From contig SKRI01000176.1 in NCBI GenBank assembly GCA_007118565.1, positions 1-57,297 of the forward strand: a DNA stretch of 57,297 nucleotides. The letters run 5' to 3'. Position 1 is the stretch's first letter; each line of letters begins with the position of its first letter. Origin of the DNA: Gemmatimonadota bacterium (GTDB lineage: Bacteria; Gemmatimonadota; Gemmatimonadetes; Longimicrobiales; Longimicrobiaceae). Of this stretch, positions 8,348-22,044 are shown in pieces. The notes beneath the pieces are model-generated. The model was not told the origin of the DNA. It was given only the letters and a program-made list of their open reading frames with translations, and ran no database searches. Position numbers and translations under genes: made by a program.

Positions 8348-8389
8348 CAAAAGATGCGACCCCTTCCAGTGGGTGGAAGAGGTCGCATC
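8348..8389 (-). terminator. Rho-independent terminator after the sigma-factor gene
   Basis: On the minus strand the arms GATGCGACC and GGTCGCATC (8353-8389 overall, with extra CTTCC/GGAAG pairing inside) form a strong hairpin followed at once by TTTTG. It lies 31 nt past the sigma stop and before the hydrolase ribosome site, so it should separate these two units. Confidence 0.8.
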
Positions 8390-8420: not shown

Positions 8421-9107
8421 CTAAACCGGCACCGGGAGGAGCGTGCGGAAGGCGCTTCGCGCCCGGTTCAGCCGGCTCTTCACCGTACCCACCGGAATGC
8501 CCATCGCCTCGGCGATCTCCTCGTAGGAGAGGTCGTCCACCTCCCGCATCACGAACGGAACCCGGTGATGCTCCTCGAGTCGGTCGATGGCGGTCCCGAT
8601 CGCCTCCCGCAACTCGCTGCGGTACGCCTCCCGCTCCGGGCTCGCGTCGGTGGCGGCGAACTCGAGCGGGCGCGAGGGAGAGCCCGACGGGGAGTGCTCG
8701 GGCCGGATGTCGGAGAACGACGTCTCCCGACGCCGGGAGCGGTTCCGGAACTCGTTCTTCAGGAGGTTGTTGGCGATGGTGTAGATCCAGGTCGAGAACT
8801 TCCGCCCCGGATCGTAGCTCGCACGCGCCCGGTGGATTCGCAGGAAGGTGTCCTGCGTGAGGTCGAGAACCCGCTCCTCCGCATCGAGGCGCTTCCGCAG
8901 GAAGCCCTGGATCTGCGGCTCGTACCGTTCTACGAGCAGGCGGAATGCGTCCGCGTTCCCGCTCGTATAGAGCTGGAAAAGCTCCTCGTCGCGAAGATCC
9001 TCGATACGCGGGGACTCGCCGGCGGCGTTCCCCTGCGGGTCGAGCACCGGCCTCTCCTGGCTCTGCCGCCGACGGGCGACGGACGGTCGTCGGATGGTCT
9101 GCTCCAT
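8421..9107 (-). CDS. RNA polymerase sigma factor, ECF (sigma-70 family)
   Basis: A 228-residue protein. Region 2 is clear (DAFRLLVERYEPQIQGFLRK, then LDLTQDTFLRIHRARASYDP and FSTWIYTIANNLLKNEFRNR). Region 4 is equally clear (HRVPFVMREVDDLSYEEIAEAMGIPVGTVKSRLNRAR). The linker between them is longer than usual and charged. The N-terminal 35 residues are basic and unconserved. No anti-sigma gene is adjacent. A promoter-like sequence sits directly before the ATG at 9107, so the mRNA may be leaderless. It ends the minus-strand run that begins with the ceramide-type genes but probably has its own promoter. Confidence 0.92.
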   Translation of the reverse strand: MEQTIRRPSVARRRQSQERPVLDPQGNAAGESPRIEDLRDEELFQLYTSGNADAFRLLVERYEPQIQGFLRKRLDAEERVLDLTQDTFLRIHRARASYDPGRKFSTWIYTIANNLLKNEFRNRSRRRETSFSDIRPEHSPSGSPSRPLEFAATDASPEREAYRSELREAIGTAIDRLEEHHRVPFVMREVDDLSYEEIAEAMGIPVGTVKSRLNRARSAFRTLLPVPV

Positions 9108-9114
9108 GGTGGAA

Positions 9115-9143
9115 AATATAACGAATGGCCCGTCCCCTGTCGA
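9115..9143 (-). promoter_or_regulatory. Sigma-70-like promoter of the sigma-factor gene
   Basis: On the minus strand: -35 TCGACA (9143-9138), 17-nt spacer, -10 TATATT (9120-9115). Each hexamer matches 5 of 6 consensus positions. Only 7 nt separate the -10 from the ATG, so transcription would begin at or next to the start codon. Confidence 0.65.
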
Positions 9144-9190
9144 GGACGGAAAGGGCGAACCCGCAACGGGGCAATGAGTTGCAAATTCCG

Positions 9191-10264
9191 CTACCGGGCG
9201 GCCCGGAACCGCCGGTAGAGGAAGAGGAAGAGCACGGAGCCGACCGTCAGCTGCGCATAGAAGGTGAGGAAGCGCCAGCCGGCCGTGGCGATCCCGATGA
9301 TCTCGCCGGGGAGAAGGGGGCCGAAGACGAAGAAGAAGGACGCTTCCGCCCCACCGGTGGCCCCGGGCGTCGGAATCATGGTCATCAGCGAGAAGACCAC
9401 CCACTGAAGGAGGAAGAAGAGCACGACGTCCACCCGCGCGCCGAGGAAGGCCGCCAGCGCCGCGATCACCGAATAGCGGGAGATCCACTGGATGGCGGCG
9501 AGGCACATGCTCAAGGCGAACCACCCCTTCCCGTTCCGGATGATCCCTTCGTACACGTCCCGCGCATCCCACCAGGCCGCGCGGAGCCGACGCCAGATGC
9601 GGATGTGGAACGGCGCCTCCTCGAAGGGATCCTTTTTCGCGGGACCCCTCAGCCGGAGGATGCGGAGGGTGATCCAGGTGAGGACGACCACCACCGCCAC
9701 GAGGATAAGCGCCGCGGGCAGATTGGCCTGGATCTGCTCCCCGATGCCGCGTAGCAGGGGCATCCGCCAGGCTCCGGTCACCATGATGGCGGCAGGGATG
9801 GCGATGGCGAAGAAGATCGCATCCTCCACCGATGCGAGGGTGGTGACCGAGGCCGCCGCCCCCGGGGAGACGCCCCGTTGCATGAGCAGTCCCCACTTGA
9901 ATACGCCCCCGCCCAACGCCGTAGGGCTGGCCGCCCCTCCGAGCGTGGTTCCCACCACCACGGTGAAGCTTTCCCTCAGGGTGAGGGCATGACCGATGAA
10001 GCGGGTCCAGATGGCGAGCCGCAGGGTATGCGTGACCCAGGGGACGAAGGCGAGGACGAGCGCCAGGAGGAGGTAGTGGCGGGGAAACTCGGTAAGGGCG
10101 GCGAGCACCTCGCGGTCCGTGGCGAGGAGGGTGAAGACCACATTCCCCAGCACGCCGATCGGCACCACGATCAGCATGATGTGAATGGCCCGTTTCCACA
10201 GGAGCTTACGGCGCTCCCCCTCCGGACGGGCCCCGGACGCCGCCTCCGGGGTCGACGTGCTCAT
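9191..10264 (-). CDS. Flippase-like (LPG synthase TM / UPF0104, YbhN type) integral membrane protein
   Basis: A 357-residue polytopic membrane protein with about 7-8 hydrophobic helices. Conserved-looking motifs include GTTLGGAASPTALGGGVFKW (about residues 106-125) and the C-terminal MIPTPGATGGAEASFFFVF, which carries the PTPGGxGxxE-type signature of the lysylphosphatidylglycerol synthase/flippase domain. Family members sit beside glycosyltransferases and are thought to move lipid-linked substrates, though few are proven. The ATG overlaps the upstream glycosyltransferase stop as ATGA. This places it in the putative sphingolipid run, where it may export a glycosylated lipid; that is inference. 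Confidence 0.8.
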   Translation of the reverse strand: MSTSTPEAASGARPEGERRKLLWKRAIHIMLIVVPIGVLGNVVFTLLATDREVLAALTEFPRHYLLLALVLAFVPWVTHTLRLAIWTRFIGHALTLRESFTVVVGTTLGGAASPTALGGGVFKWGLLMQRGVSPGAAASVTTLASVEDAIFFAIAIPAAIMVTGAWRMPLLRGIGEQIQANLPAALILVAVVVVLTWITLRILRLRGPAKKDPFEEAPFHIRIWRRLRAAWWDARDVYEGIIRNGKGWFALSMCLAAIQWISRYSVIAALAAFLGARVDVVLFFLLQWVVFSLMTMIPTPGATGGAEASFFFVFGPLLPGEIIGIATAGWRFLTFYAQLTVGSVLFLFLYRRFRAAR

Positions 10265-11385
10265 GGCTCCGCCGCCGCCTCCACCAGGCGGCGGTACTCC
10301 TCCACCAGCGCCCGGTTGATGGCGGCCCAGCTCCGCTCCGCGGCCGTCTCGCGCGCCGCGCTCCCCATGCGCGCGCGTCGAGCCTCGTCGTGCAGAAGCT
10401 CTCCGACCGCACCGGCAAGATTCTCCGGATGGTTGGCCGGGGTGACGCGGCCCGTCCGACTGTCCTCGACGAGATCCATCACCCCGCCCCGATCGACGAC
10501 CACCGGCGGCGTCCCCGAAGCCATTGCCTCGAGCACCACATTTCCGAAGGTCTCGGTGGTGGAGGGAAAGACGAAGATATCCGCGGAGGCGTACCAGGCC
10601 GCGAGCTCGGTCCCCTCGAGGTGACCGGCGAAGCAGGCGTTCGGGAGCCGGCTCTCCAGCTCCCCGCGCATCGGTCCGTCCCCCACCAGTGCCAGCCGGA
10701 AGGGGTCGCCGCGCCGGCGGAGGATCTCGGACATGACCACCAGGTCATCGAGATCCTTCTCCCGGACGAGCCTGCCGCCGAAGAGAACGATCGGCCCCTC
10801 CCCGGGGATCCCCTTCCGTAGCGCCTCCGAGCGCCGCCCCGGGTTGAAGCGAACCGGGTCGATACCGCGCGACCAGAGGCGCACACCCCGGATGCCGTTC
10901 CGGTCGAGCTCGTGAATCATCGCGCGGGAGGGGGCGAAAACCGCGTCGCACCGCCCGTAGAAGTGTCGCAGGATCCGCCACCCGGCGGCCTCCAGCGGCC
11001 GGACCCGGTAGTAACGGAAGTAGGAGACGAAATGGGTGTGGAAGCTGGCCACGGCCGGAATGCCGCGGCGGTGCGCGGCGGTAACGGCCCGGTAGGCGAG
11101 CGGCGTTGGACTCACCGTGTGCACGAGATCGGCTCGGAAGTCGTCCAGCGCGCGCCCCACTCCGAAGGTGGGCAACGCGACCCGGTAGTCCGGATAGAGG
11201 GGGAAGCGGACGTACGGGACCTTTCGGACCCGGTCGGCCCAAGGCACCTCGGGGCCCGGAACAAAGGGGGAGAATACGCGGAAGTCGATCCCCTCGTCGA
11301 CCAGCGTGTCGAAGAGCCGCGCCAGGGTGAGGGACACGCCGTCGACGTGGGGCAGGAGGCTCTCCGTGAAGTAGGCGATCCTCAC
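10261..11385 (-). CDS. GT4-family glycosyltransferase (GDP-mannose-dependent mannosyltransferase-like)
   Basis: A 374-residue GT-B fold enzyme. Seen: N-terminal MRIAYFTESLLPHVDGVSL acceptor-side motif, FGGRLVREKDLDDLV at the start of the second Rossmann domain, and the EX7E-type donor site ETFGNVVLEAMASGTPPVVV. It resembles MgtA/PimB-type lipid mannosyltransferases, but sugar donor and acceptor cannot be read from sequence. The start is GTG at 11385, without a strong ribosome site. Downstream it is coupled by ATGA to the flippase-like gene; upstream, 54 nt separate it from the GNAT gene. Its position suggests a glycolipid, possibly glycosyl-ceramide, product. Confidence 0.85.
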   Translation of the reverse strand: MRIAYFTESLLPHVDGVSLTLARLFDTLVDEGIDFRVFSPFVPGPEVPWADRVRKVPYVRFPLYPDYRVALPTFGVGRALDDFRADLVHTVSPTPLAYRAVTAAHRRGIPAVASFHTHFVSYFRYYRVRPLEAAGWRILRHFYGRCDAVFAPSRAMIHELDRNGIRGVRLWSRGIDPVRFNPGRRSEALRKGIPGEGPIVLFGGRLVREKDLDDLVVMSEILRRRGDPFRLALVGDGPMRGELESRLPNACFAGHLEGTELAAWYASADIFVFPSTTETFGNVVLEAMASGTPPVVVDRGGVMDLVEDSRTGRVTPANHPENLAGAVGELLHDEARRARMGSAARETAAERSWAAINRALVEEYRRLVEAAAEP

Positions 11386-11439
11386 GGGATTTGGGCAAGG
11401 CGCCGGGCCACGGTCATGGGGCGCGGTCTGGCACGAAGA

Positions 11440-12555
11440 TCATCCCAGCGGGCGCAGGTAGATCCGGTACCGCTTGTTCACGTAAGCGCCCATCTTCTCG
11501 AGGGCCAGGTTCATCTCCCGGTTGTCCTCGAGTATCCACGACGCCTCGCCGTGATACCCCTTCTCCCCCTCGCCGACCAGCCAGGTCCGCAGGTAGAGCA
11601 GGGGCCCGAGCGCGCGGTGGCGATGCTCGGCGCGGATGCCGAGGGTGAGGATGCGAACCCGCCAGACCCTGCGGCGGTGCCAGAGGAAGCGGAGGAAGCC
11701 GAAGGGAAAGAGGCGCCCATTGAGCGGCTTGAAGGCCACGTTCAGATCGGGGAGCGCCAGGGAGAACCCCGCCGGCTCGCCCTCGACCTCGGCGATCAGG
11801 CAGAGGTCCGGGTCGTAGACGGGCTTCATCTCCCGCGCCATGAAATCGAACTCTTCGTCGGTCATCGGCACGAACCCCCAGTTCTCCTCCCACGCCGCAT
11901 TGTAGATGTCCTTGATGATGCCGACATCGCGCTCGAAATGCTTCGGGTCGATCGGGCGCACGGTCGCCTTCTCGCGGCGGGCGAGCCGCTCGACGCCGCG
12001 CACCAGCCGCTCCGGGGCGGGCGCGCGGTCGAGCGCGTAGGCGAGCAGGTCCTTCTCCTTCCGGTAGCCGGCGCCCTCGATCAGCGTGCCGTAGTACGGG
12101 GGGTTGTAGGGCATCATTATGGCCGGCTCCTTTCCGAAGCCATCGACCAGGAGGCCACACTCCTCGTTGGTGGAGAAGTTCATCGGCCCCCGGACCTGCT
12201 CCATTCCCCGCTCACGCAGCCAGCCTTCCGCCGCCTCGAAGAGCGCACGAGCGGTCACTGCAACGTTCTCGCATTCGAAGAATCCGAAGAATCCGGTTCG
12301 CTCGTCGTGGAACTCGTTGTGACGGTGGTTGACGATGGCAGCGATGCGCCCCACCGGGCGCCCCTCCCGCTCGGCCAGGAGGTATGCCACTTCCGCGTGC
12401 CTGTGGAAGGGATGCTTCTCGCGGTCGAGGAGGGTGCGGAGCTGGAGGCGGAGCGGGGGCACCCAGGCGGGATCGCCCGCGTTCATCTCCCACGCCAGGT
12501 CGATGAACGGCTTGAGGGAGCGACCGGGCGGGATCTCGCGGACGGTGACGGTCAA
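11440..12555 (-). CDS. GNAT-fold acyltransferase, candidate bacterial ceramide synthase (bCerS)
   Basis: About 371 residues. The protein has the long two-lobed GNAT layout seen next to serine palmitoyltransferase in several phyla: FIDLAWEMNAGDPAWVPPLR at the N-terminus, FGFFECENV, then GPMNFSTNEECGLLVDGF and MMPYNPPYYGTL, and a C-terminal acetyl-CoA-binding-like half. Known: bacterial ceramide is made by Spt, a GNAT-superfamily bCerS that N-acylates the base, and the reductase CerR. All three types lie side by side here, so N-acylation of 3-ketosphinganine is a reasonable inference. The only in-frame start between the spt stop and the conserved region is TTG at 12555; it lacks a good ribosome site, so the start is uncertain. 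Confidence 0.72.
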   Translation of the reverse strand: MTVTVREIPPGRSLKPFIDLAWEMNAGDPAWVPPLRLQLRTLLDREKHPFHRHAEVAYLLAEREGRPVGRIAAIVNHRHNEFHDERTGFFGFFECENVAVTARALFEAAEGWLRERGMEQVRGPMNFSTNEECGLLVDGFGKEPAIMMPYNPPYYGTLIEGAGYRKEKDLLAYALDRAPAPERLVRGVERLARREKATVRPIDPKHFERDVGIIKDIYNAAWEENWGFVPMTDEEFDFMAREMKPVYDPDLCLIAEVEGEPAGFSLALPDLNVAFKPLNGRLFPFGFLRFLWHRRRVWRVRILTLGIRAEHRHRALGPLLYLRTWLVGEGEKGYHGEASWILEDNREMNLALEKMGAYVNKRYRIYLRPLG

Positions 12556-12622
12556 GGGGCGATGTGGAGAGCGGGGACTCGAGCGGCCCCTGGGAGGCCG
12601 CGGGCACGGCGGAACGGCTTCG

Positions 12623-13840
12623 TCAGATGATGCCGCGCGCCCGCCCCACCTTGCCGAAGGCGTCCAGCACCTCGTCCAGATGGTCACGGGTATGCGTCGC
12701 CATGACCGAGGTCCGCAGCCGGCACGAGTGGTCGGGGACCGCCGGCGGAAGCACCGGATTCGTGAAGACACCCACATCGAAGAGGCCGCGCCAGAAGCCG
12801 AGGGTGGGCATCATCTCCCCGATCACGACCGGGATGATCGGCGTCTCCGAGGTGACCGTGTCGTACCCGAGCGACTGGAGCCCGGAGCGAAGATAGTCGG
12901 CGTTCTCCCAGAGTCGAACGCGGCGCTCCGGCTCCCGCTCCATGACGTCGAGGCAGGCGAGGACGGTGGCCACGGCGGACGGCGGCATGCTCGCGCTGAA
13001 GATGAGCGAGCGAGCGTGGTGCTTGAGGAAGTGAATGACTTCGGTCGGGCCCCCGAGCGCGCCGCCGATCGAAGCGAACGACTTGGAGAAGGTGGCCATG
13101 GAGAGGTCGACGCGCTCCTCGAGGCCGAAGTGCTGCGCGGTTCCGCCCCCCCGCTCGCCGATCACCCCCACGGCATGCGCATCGTCGACCAGCAGCCGGG
13201 CCCCGTACTCCTCGACGATGGGAACGATGCTGGGCAGGTCCACGATGTTCCCCTCCATGGAGAAGACGCCGTCGGTCACGACCAGCACGCCGCCGGGCGC
13301 TTCCGCGTGCCGTTCGAGCGCCCTGCGCATTCCCTCGACGTCGCCGTGCGGGTAGCGAACCATCTGCCCCGCCGACAGCAAACCGCCGTCGACGAGGGAG
13401 GCATGATTGAGGCGGTCCTGGATGACCACGCCGCCGCGCCCCACGAGGGTAGAGATGGCACCGAGGTTCGTCTGGTAGCCGGTGCTGAAGACGAGCGACG
13501 ATTCATGACCCATGAAGGCGGCGAGCCGCGTCTCGAGCTCCTCGTGGAGGTCGAGCGTCCCATTGAGGAAGCGGCTCCCCGTGCACCCGGTCCCGTAGCG
13601 GTCCAGGGCGGCCTTGGCGCGCTCGAGAACGTACGGGTGGTGGGTGAGTCCGAGGTAGTTGTTCGACCCGACCATTACCTTCCGCTCCCCGCGGATGGTG
13701 ACCTCGGTGTCGGCGCTCGCCTCGATGGCCTGGAAGTAGGGGTAGACCCCCGCTTCCATCACGTCGCGAGCCGCACGGAACCTCTTGCACTTGTCGAATA
13801 CGTCCATGGAGGCACGCACCTGCTGGTCAAGCGCTTCCAT
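12623..13840 (-). CDS. spt: Serine palmitoyltransferase-like PLP enzyme (alpha-oxoamine synthase family)
   Basis: A 405-residue fold-type I aminotransferase relative. Seen: GSNNYLGLTHHP, DDAHAVGVIGERGGGTAQHF, the PLP lysine in TFSKSFASIGG and a C-terminal LRTSVMATHT. VFSMEGNIVDLP and the MATHT motif favour serine palmitoyltransferase over biotin (BioF) or KBL enzymes. The reaction is condensation of L-serine with a long acyl thioester to 3-ketosphinganine, the committed step of sphingolipid synthesis. The ATG at 13840 has GGAGAGG upstream. An epimerase/dehydratase gene lies upstream and a GNAT gene 67 nt downstream; no bio genes are near. Substrate identity is inferred, not shown. Confidence 0.8.
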   Translation of the reverse strand: MEALDQQVRASMDVFDKCKRFRAARDVMEAGVYPYFQAIEASADTEVTIRGERKVMVGSNNYLGLTHHPYVLERAKAALDRYGTGCTGSRFLNGTLDLHEELETRLAAFMGHESSLVFSTGYQTNLGAISTLVGRGGVVIQDRLNHASLVDGGLLSAGQMVRYPHGDVEGMRRALERHAEAPGGVLVVTDGVFSMEGNIVDLPSIVPIVEEYGARLLVDDAHAVGVIGERGGGTAQHFGLEERVDLSMATFSKSFASIGGALGGPTEVIHFLKHHARSLIFSASMPPSAVATVLACLDVMEREPERRVRLWENADYLRSGLQSLGYDTVTSETPIIPVVIGEMMPTLGFWRGLFDVGVFTNPVLPPAVPDHSCRLRTSVMATHTRDHLDEVLDAFGKVGRARGII

Positions 13841-13877
13841 ATCTAACCTCTCCAGCTCTCGGCGGGAGCACGGATTG

Positions 13878-13901
13878 GCGACCCGGTCATGACCGGGTCG
13901 C
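13878..13901. promoter_or_regulatory. Perfect 24-nt palindrome upstream of spt
   Basis: The arm GCGACCCGGT and its exact complement flank CATG. It lies 37 nt upstream of the spt start and 57 nt after the epimerase stop. No T-run follows on either strand, so it may be an operator or an RNA hairpin rather than a classical terminator. Confidence 0.6.
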
Positions 13902-13958
13902 TCCACGGACCGATGAGGTGCGGAACGGGAATGACCCCGAACCCTTCGTGTAGAGCCG

Positions 13959-14942
13959 TCACAACCATCCCTGGCATCGGTACCATTCCACGGTCTGCCT
14001 CATCGCGCGTTCGAGTGGGGTGGTGTCGGACGATGGCAGGAGCCATTCGCCTCCGGCGAGTTCGCACACCCACCCTTCGGCCAGCATCTCCTCCGCCTTC
14101 TCACGGCTGAAGGTGGCGGTCATCCCCATTGCCGCGGCCGCCCCTTCGGTCAACCGGGCCGCGACTCGCAACGCGGCCGCCGGCAGCGGAACCGGCAGGT
14201 ACCGCCTCCGTCCCAGCGCGTCGGCCATAACCTCGACCACCTCCGGCCAGCGGTGCACACGAGGGTGGGACACCGCATACGTCCCTTCCGGTCCCTCGGC
14301 CGCCCGGGAGAGCGCCCCGGCAAGGTCGGGTGCGTATGCCAGGTGGAGCCGCTCTCCGCCCCCCTTCGGCATCGGGGCGATCCCGTGCCGGACCATGCGG
14401 AAGTACGGGAGCAGCGCACGATCACCCGGCCCGAAGACCGCCGGCGCTCGCAGCGTGATCACGCCGGTCCCCTCCGGCATTCCCCGTTCCAGCGCCTCCT
14501 CCCCGTCGAGCTTGCTCCGCCCGTACGCCGTAAGGGGCATCGGGGGATCGTCCGACCGCCGGGGTCGACCCTCCGGTGCGGGACCGCACGCTGCGTACGA
14601 GCTGAGGTGGATGATTCGGCGCGGGGGGGTCGCGGCGCCCGCCACCGCCGCGGCCAGCAGCCGGGAGCCGTCGACATTGGCGCGCCGGAAGCCGGCCTCG
14701 CTCCGCGCGAAGGTGACCGCGGCCAGATGGAAGACCACATCCACGCCCCGAACCGCCTCGGCCAGAGAGGCCGGATCGAGCAGCCCGCCCTCCACCCGCT
14801 CGGCACCGATCCGGTCGAGCGTGCCGGTGTCCGAGGTCCTGCGCACGAGGGCGCGGATCTCCCACCCCTCCTCGTGGAGCCGCTCCACCAGGTGGCTGCC
14901 GACGAACCCCGTCGCCCCGGTCACCAACGCTCGTCTCCCCAT
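13959..14942 (-). CDS. NAD-dependent epimerase/dehydratase (SDR), candidate ceramide reductase CerR
   Basis: A 327-residue extended short-chain dehydrogenase. Seen: Rossmann GATGFVGSHL (residues about 9-18), FHLAAVTF, the SS and YxxxK catalytic parts HLSSYAACG and LTAYGRSKLDGEE, and RAPAVFGPGD in the substrate domain. The family oxidises or reduces sugar nucleotides, sterols or ketolipids. With an Spt-like and a GNAT-like gene directly downstream, reduction of the 3-keto group of the ceramide precursor is the likeliest job; a sugar-nucleotide role for the nearby glycosyltransferase is the alternative. The ATG at 14942 is the only start at the Rossmann N-terminus. It is the first gene of the minus-strand run. 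Confidence 0.8.
   Translation of the reverse strand: MGRRALVTGATGFVGSHLVERLHEEGWEIRALVRRTSDTGTLDRIGAERVEGGLLDPASLAEAVRGVDVVFHLAAVTFARSEAGFRRANVDGSRLLAAAVAGAATPPRRIIHLSSYAACGPAPEGRPRRSDDPPMPLTAYGRSKLDGEEALERGMPEGTGVITLRAPAVFGPGDRALLPYFRMVRHGIAPMPKGGGERLHLAYAPDLAGALSRAAEGPEGTYAVSHPRVHRWPEVVEVMADALGRRRYLPVPLPAAALRVAARLTEGAAAAMGMTATFSREKAEEMLAEGWVCELAGGEWLLPSSDTTPLERAMRQTVEWYRCQGWL

Positions 14943-15148: not shown

Positions 15149-22044
<6,896 letters not shown>

Follow-up and report, generated by a model that had tools for sequence, protein, structure and literature searches.

A predicted ceramide gene trio in a Gemmatimonadota genome and the glycosyltransferase-flippase pair lying behind it

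The stretch of DNA analysed here, hereafter the window, comprises positions 1 to 57,297 of contig SKRI01000176.1 from the Gemmatimonadota bacterium assembly GCA_007118565.1, the genome of a soil-type organism, 2.9 Mb in 306 contigs and 94% complete. On its minus strand the window carries three adjacent genes for a short-chain dehydrogenase/reductase (SDR), a pyridoxal phosphate (PLP) enzyme and a tandem GNAT protein, and this trio very probably makes a lipid of the ceramide type, a kind of lipid better known from animal cells. Directly behind it lie the genes of a GT4 glycosyltransferase and a flippase-like membrane protein. There is good support for counting the locus among the known bacterial pathways to ceramide; the pathway seems widespread in the phylum, and the GT4-flippase pair is a lineage-specific and partly fused neighbour. 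Acting as a serine palmitoyltransferase (SPT), the PLP enzyme would turn serine and a fatty acyl-CoA into 3-ketosphinganine, which the tandem GNAT would N-acylate; the SDR would reduce the keto group, the order of these last two steps being debated. Homology, phylogeny, active-site residues and linkage are the grounds for assigning the three enzymes; the product and, for the neighbouring pair, the sugar and the acceptor are inferred.

By sequence comparison and phylogeny, the PLP enzyme is predicted to be an SPT of the Bacteroidota type. Its top NCBIfam model is NF047600 (Bacteroidota SPT) at 494 bits, a lead of 106 bits over the BioF model (387), with the KBL model at 368. NF047600 is a narrow Bacteroidota model whose equivalog cut-off of 640 bits is not reached, and we therefore name the protein an SPT of Bacteroidota type and not a member of the equivalog. 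Compared with proteins of solved structure in the PDB, it matched the SPT of Sphingobacterium multivorum best (408 bits), as against 313 bits for the alpha-oxoamine synthase of T. thermophilus, a BioF/KBL enzyme. Eleven of the twelve active-site positions described for the S. multivorum enzyme are identical in the window SPT, and N52, G80, S81, H138, S243 and K244 are all matched; the lone change is an I in place of M at position 271, which makes a main-chain contact (PMC10196870). The MATHT motif pointed out in an earlier note on this DNA is present (RTSVMATHTRDHL) and is common to both enzymes. In a tree that included proven SPTs (18 rows on the SPT side), E. coli BioF, E. coli KBL and paralogues from the same phylum, the window enzyme fell with the SPTs of S. 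multivorum, Sphingomonas and E. coli BL21 (support 95/95). The earlier note had considered that it might instead cluster with BioF or KBL; approximately unbiased (AU) tests rejected both groupings (p-AU 4e-5 for BioF and 4e-8 for KBL). It is also the sole alpha-oxoamine synthase found in the host genome.

The tandem GNAT, which contains the MMPYNPPYY string noted earlier, is by homology and predicted fold related to bCerS. Its identity is 35.8% to E. coli YghO, over 96% of the length, and 37.9% to Sphingomonas CerS, the coverage for the two being 96-98%. YghO is annotated as CerS and is listed as the orthologue of CC_1154, called aca, in the ceramide cluster of E. coli BL21 (PMC9386255). An AlphaFold (AF2) model of the protein has the tandem-GNAT fold with a pLDDT of 90, and the best PDB matches to this model in Foldseek are tandem GNATs; a sequence search of the PDB with the GNAT matched no chain. 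Its tree is star-like: a clade joining the SPT-linked and the rhodobacterial members with Diaphorobacter and locus L087 was not rejected (p 0.08), and the same clade without these two was rejected. The earlier note had named a position outside the bCerS clade as a refutation, and the test did not refute the assignment. The description of the SDR as CerR-like also stands: it grouped with SDRs from the trios of many phyla and with E. coli CerR (17 rows) apart from eight decoys, SDR paralogues from its own genome, with moderate support (87/83). In Caulobacter, CerR is reported to be periplasmic (PMC11087976).

As the earlier note observed, no acyl carrier protein or acyl-ACP ligase is seen nearby, and a homology search found no relatives of E. 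coli AcpR or AasR around the trio. Bacteroidota SPTs use acyl-CoA, while in the alpha-, beta- and gamma-Proteobacteria the preferred substrate is a dedicated acyl-AcpR (PMC11324152; PMC9386255). The window SPT is closest to the acyl-CoA type, so a dedicated carrier protein and ligase would not be expected. Five loci of another Gemmatimonadota family, f5 (L252, L254, L256, L257 and L259), hold a second kind of cluster, made up of an AasR-like ligase, a rhodobacterial-like SPT (35-37%) and a GNAT of bCerS type; some f5 relatives have a Bacteroidota-type SPT in its place.

The grouping of the three genes goes beyond chance, because SDR, SPT and GNAT are contiguous and in the same order in 17 of the 20 relatives from the window's own family (f1, probably Longimicrobiaceae) and in eight of the ten from its sister family (f2), 25 of 30 together. 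Among 80 GNAT loci taken across phyla, an SPT lies within about 9 kb in 57 and an SDR in 49; the set is also found together in records from Streptomyces, Rubrobacter and Aureispira. The GNAT itself occurs in 98 of 200 sampled Gemmatimonadota genomes (E<=1e-70). The suggestion that this compact grouping might be a new layout does not hold, because it recurs in many phyla and because frequent clustering of the three ceramide genes, with Spt-like proteins in 38 phyla, has already been published (PMC11334938). Compared with the pathways of Caulobacter (CC_1162, CC_1154, CC_1164) and E. coli BL21 (Spt, YghO, ECD_02852), all three window enzymes are full-length homologues of the BL21 set, and SPT and SDR also group with their BL21 counterparts by phylogeny; the window trio differs in being contiguous in one operon, in lacking AcpR/AasR and in having the Bacteroidota acyl-CoA-type SPT. 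The trios of Myxococcus, Rubrobacter, Streptomyces, Aureispira, Ignavibacteria, Binatia and others have the same three genes side by side, with SPTs about 47-62% identical to that of the window, but their order and orientation vary and no orthologous GT4-flippase pair adjoins them.

Some relatives depart from this arrangement. In one genome, G004 (L065:2701-3060), the SDR adjoins the GNAT and the SPT between them is gone, with no orthologue found elsewhere in a 95% complete assembly, while the GT4, flippase-like and sigma factor genes are kept. The conserved layout in f2 (L079-L086) is class-III aminotransferase, SDR, SPT, GNAT, PAP2_3 and a CAAX-protease-like protein, and many other Gemmatimonadota (L238-L251, L262-L268) likewise have a PAP2_3 gene after SPT-GNAT-SDR. 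The Nonomuraea trio (L106:6337-10134) has its SPT on the strand opposite to GNAT-SDR and in two tblastn pieces, possibly a frameshift in the record, and a PAP2_3 relative adjoins it.

The GT4 and flippase-like genes behind the window trio overlap by ATGA, as read at the junction, consistent with the translational coupling proposed in the earlier note. The best curated match of the GT4 is NF053787 (GpgS, N-acetylglucosaminyl-phosphatidylglycerol synthase) at 182 bits, with the next best at 95, and that of the flippase-like protein is NF053789 (GpgF, glucosaminyl-phosphatidylglycerol flippase) at 90 bits; orthologues in relatives give the same best matches. Neither window protein attains the equivalog cut-off, which is 480 bits for GpgS and 320 bits for GpgF. 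PF10096, which we take to cover the deacetylase GpgD (COG3233), has no match in the host genome or beside the pair in relatives. As in gpgSDF of Pseudomonas aeruginosa and hexSDF of Clostridioides difficile, a glycosyltransferase is paired with a flippase-like gene, and the GT4 and UPF0104/LPG_synthase_TM families are those of gpgSDF; unlike these systems, the window pair has no deacetylase gene between its members, scores far below the equivalog cut-offs and adjoins ceramide genes.

Orthologues of the GT4 are present in 18 of 20 f1 relatives and in one f2 genome and are rare elsewhere (7/200 in the phylum); the flippase-like gene follows the GT4 in relatives, and the pair was not found in G011, a genome that has no trio. 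In nine genera it comes after the GNAT, at a distance of 6 nt in G002, 49 nt in G003, 54 nt in the window and about 600-1770 nt in the others. In most relatives a conserved -10-like element, TTA[CG]ATT, stands upstream of the GT4 whether the pair is adjacent to the trio or separate. In the window and in G003, GNAT coding sequence replaces this element, and no promoter-like site was seen in the window's 54-nt gap. In our reading, the pair is a separate unit that a few genera, the window's and two others, have joined to the ceramide operon, and the fusion suggests a functional tie between pair and trio without naming the acceptor.

Most likely the pair would attach a sugar to a membrane lipid at the cytoplasmic side and then flip the glycosylated product, with the ceramide of the neighbouring trio as the leading candidate for the acceptor. 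We give close to an even chance that it makes a glycosyl-ceramide. Nine of ten f2 genomes carry a PAP2_3 gene, mostly adjoining the trio, and none of the 21 from f1 does; f1 has the GT4-flippase pair instead, as if head-group genes had been swapped between the two families. In f5, different GT4s lie beside the SPT in four genera (G055, G106, G168 and G182), two of which, G055 and G168, also have LPG_synthase_TM genes there. Hidden Markov models (HMMs) at first gave a roughly ninefold enrichment of GT4 and LPG genes near trios; we regard this enrichment as suggestive only, because those models were trained on near cases. The GT4 enzymes Sgt1 and Sgt2 of Caulobacter glycosylate ceramide (PMC6445935). 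They share the GT4 family with the window enzyme and differ from it in that their genes lie apart from spt (ccna_00792/00793 vs ccna_01220), with no flippase pair described. More tentatively, Longimicrobiaceae may have recruited a GpgS/GpgF-like pair to make and flip a glycosyl-ceramide, possibly one with an amino sugar, in place of the trio-linked PAP2_3 of sister families, the pair then being fused into the operon in three genera. If so, it would be, to our knowledge, the first unit for ceramide glycosylation and flipping that is encoded with the genes for the backbone.

Several observations weigh against a ceramide or glycosyl-ceramide pathway at this locus. The exchange of PAP2_3 for the pair is a single phylogenetic split. 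With an HMM built from f1 members alone and applied to trios outside f1, the GT4 was found near in five cases and far in two (p=0.07), and for the LPG gene nothing of the enrichment was left. The trio occurs without the pair in at least seven f2 genomes. Genes resembling SPT have been misleading in the past (PMC8895605), searches turned up no lipid data for the host or its family, and nothing on sphingolipids of Longimicrobium or Gemmatimonadota was found in the collection of papers searched. Further points of this kind bear on a specific alternative, in which the trio makes ceramide and the pair is an independent GpgS-GpgF-like module next door that glycosylates phosphatidylglycerol or another glycerolipid. 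We consider this a real possibility, if one we lean away from. For both proteins the top curated match points to one system, which acts on phosphatidylglycerol, and gpgSDF has been shown to make glucosaminyl-phosphatidylglycerol (PMC12713373). In genus g7, the nine genomes with both trio and pair have them on different contigs, and in 12-13 of 17 aligned loci a promoter-like element of its own precedes the pair. On the other side, both scores are far under their cut-offs, a GpgD-type deacetylase was not found in the host genome or next to the relatives' pairs, three genera have the pair close behind the GNAT, and the trio-less G011 lacks it.

Two further alternatives concern the backbone itself. 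It might be sphingolipid-like and not derived from serine, either a 1-deoxy base from alanine or glycine or a sulfonolipid from cysteate, since alpha-oxoamine synthases vary in the amino acid they use and the S. multivorum SPT weakly takes Ala and Gly (PMC10196870). We think this improbable: the six named residues match that SPT, and a solved cysteate-C-fatty acyltransferase scores 232 bits against 408, on which grounds a sulfonolipid synthase was rejected. Far less probable still is that the PLP enzyme is a BioF or KBL and the grouping has nothing to do with sphingolipids. Similarity at the level of the family, with strong matches to the BioF and KBL models, is what speaks for it, but the AU tests reject both identities and in many phyla the gene is linked to those of GNAT and SDR. 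The preferred reading remains a ceramide trio with the pair as its possible glycosylation and flipping partner.

Other genes of similar kinds occur near trios in relatives. An HpnL-like LPG_synthase_TM protein lies convergent to the trio and within about 2 kb of it in several Gemmatimonadota of families f4 and f5 (L231:12172-13203, L253, L261, L249, L271, L193, L196, L218). In several f1 genomes an HpnB-like GT2 glycosyltransferase is encoded upstream of the SDR (L067:9350-10501 and equivalents) and is a candidate for an alternative ceramide glycosyltransferase.

The features of the locus are collected in Table 1. The earlier note had described six co-directional genes and one run; all six open reading frames, the sixth that of an ECF (extracytoplasmic function) sigma factor, are there on the minus strand and the trio is contiguous, with 67 nt between SPT and GNAT, but "one run" overstates the unit. 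A TCGACA-17-TA[TG]NTT site stands 6-8 nt before the sigma ATG at 16 of 16 f1 loci, trio-adjacent or not (some with TAGATT or TATCTT), and the window's TCGACA-17-TATATT is the only exact copy in the host genome. Given this conserved promoter and the terminator-like hairpin that follows the gene, the sigma factor is most likely its own transcription unit, a neighbour transcribed separately, and because the site is so close to the start codon its mRNA would be near-leaderless. The six-gene order is likewise not conserved as a unit, f1 relatives showing three blocks: trio, GT4-flippase and sigma. We therefore reject a single six-gene operon for the sigma gene and regard it as doubtful, as a conserved unit, for the pair. 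Divergent from the SDR and about 200 bp away is an open reading frame of 1622 residues (15149-20017, plus strand), by its look presumably a large NAD-dependent glutamate dehydrogenase.

Table 1. Genes and predicted signals of the locus, in order of transcription (window coordinates)
Feature	Coordinates	Strand	Basis
SDR, CerR-like (extended NAD-dependent epimerase/dehydratase type)	13959..14942	-	Pfam PF01370
Predicted SPT, Bacteroidota (acyl-CoA) type, PLP enzyme	12623..13840	-	NF047600, tree, active site
Tandem GNAT, putative bCerS/CerS/Aca (E. coli YghO family)	11440..12555	-	Homology to YghO; TTG start probable because homology begins there
GT4 glycosyltransferase, GTG start	10261..11385	-	PF00534/PF13439; nearest curated family GpgS
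LPG_synthase_TM membrane protein, flippase-like	9191..10264	-	PF03706 88 bits; nearest curated family GpgF
Promoter-like TCGACA-17-TATATT ahead of sigma gene	9115..9143	-	10/12 match
ECF-type RNA polymerase sigma factor	8421..9107	-	PF04542 + PF08281
Hairpin of 16 pairs resembling an intrinsic terminator, after the sigma gene at the end of the run	8353..8389	-	

These findings extend the acyl-CoA type of ceramide operon to the Gemmatimonadota at scale, with a ceramide synthase gene in about half of the genomes sampled. What stands next to the trio differs by family, PAP2_3 in some and a glycosyltransferase with a flippase in others. As the attachment of head groups to bacterial ceramides and their passage across the inner membrane are mostly unknown, the locus offers a short list of genes on which both may be tested.

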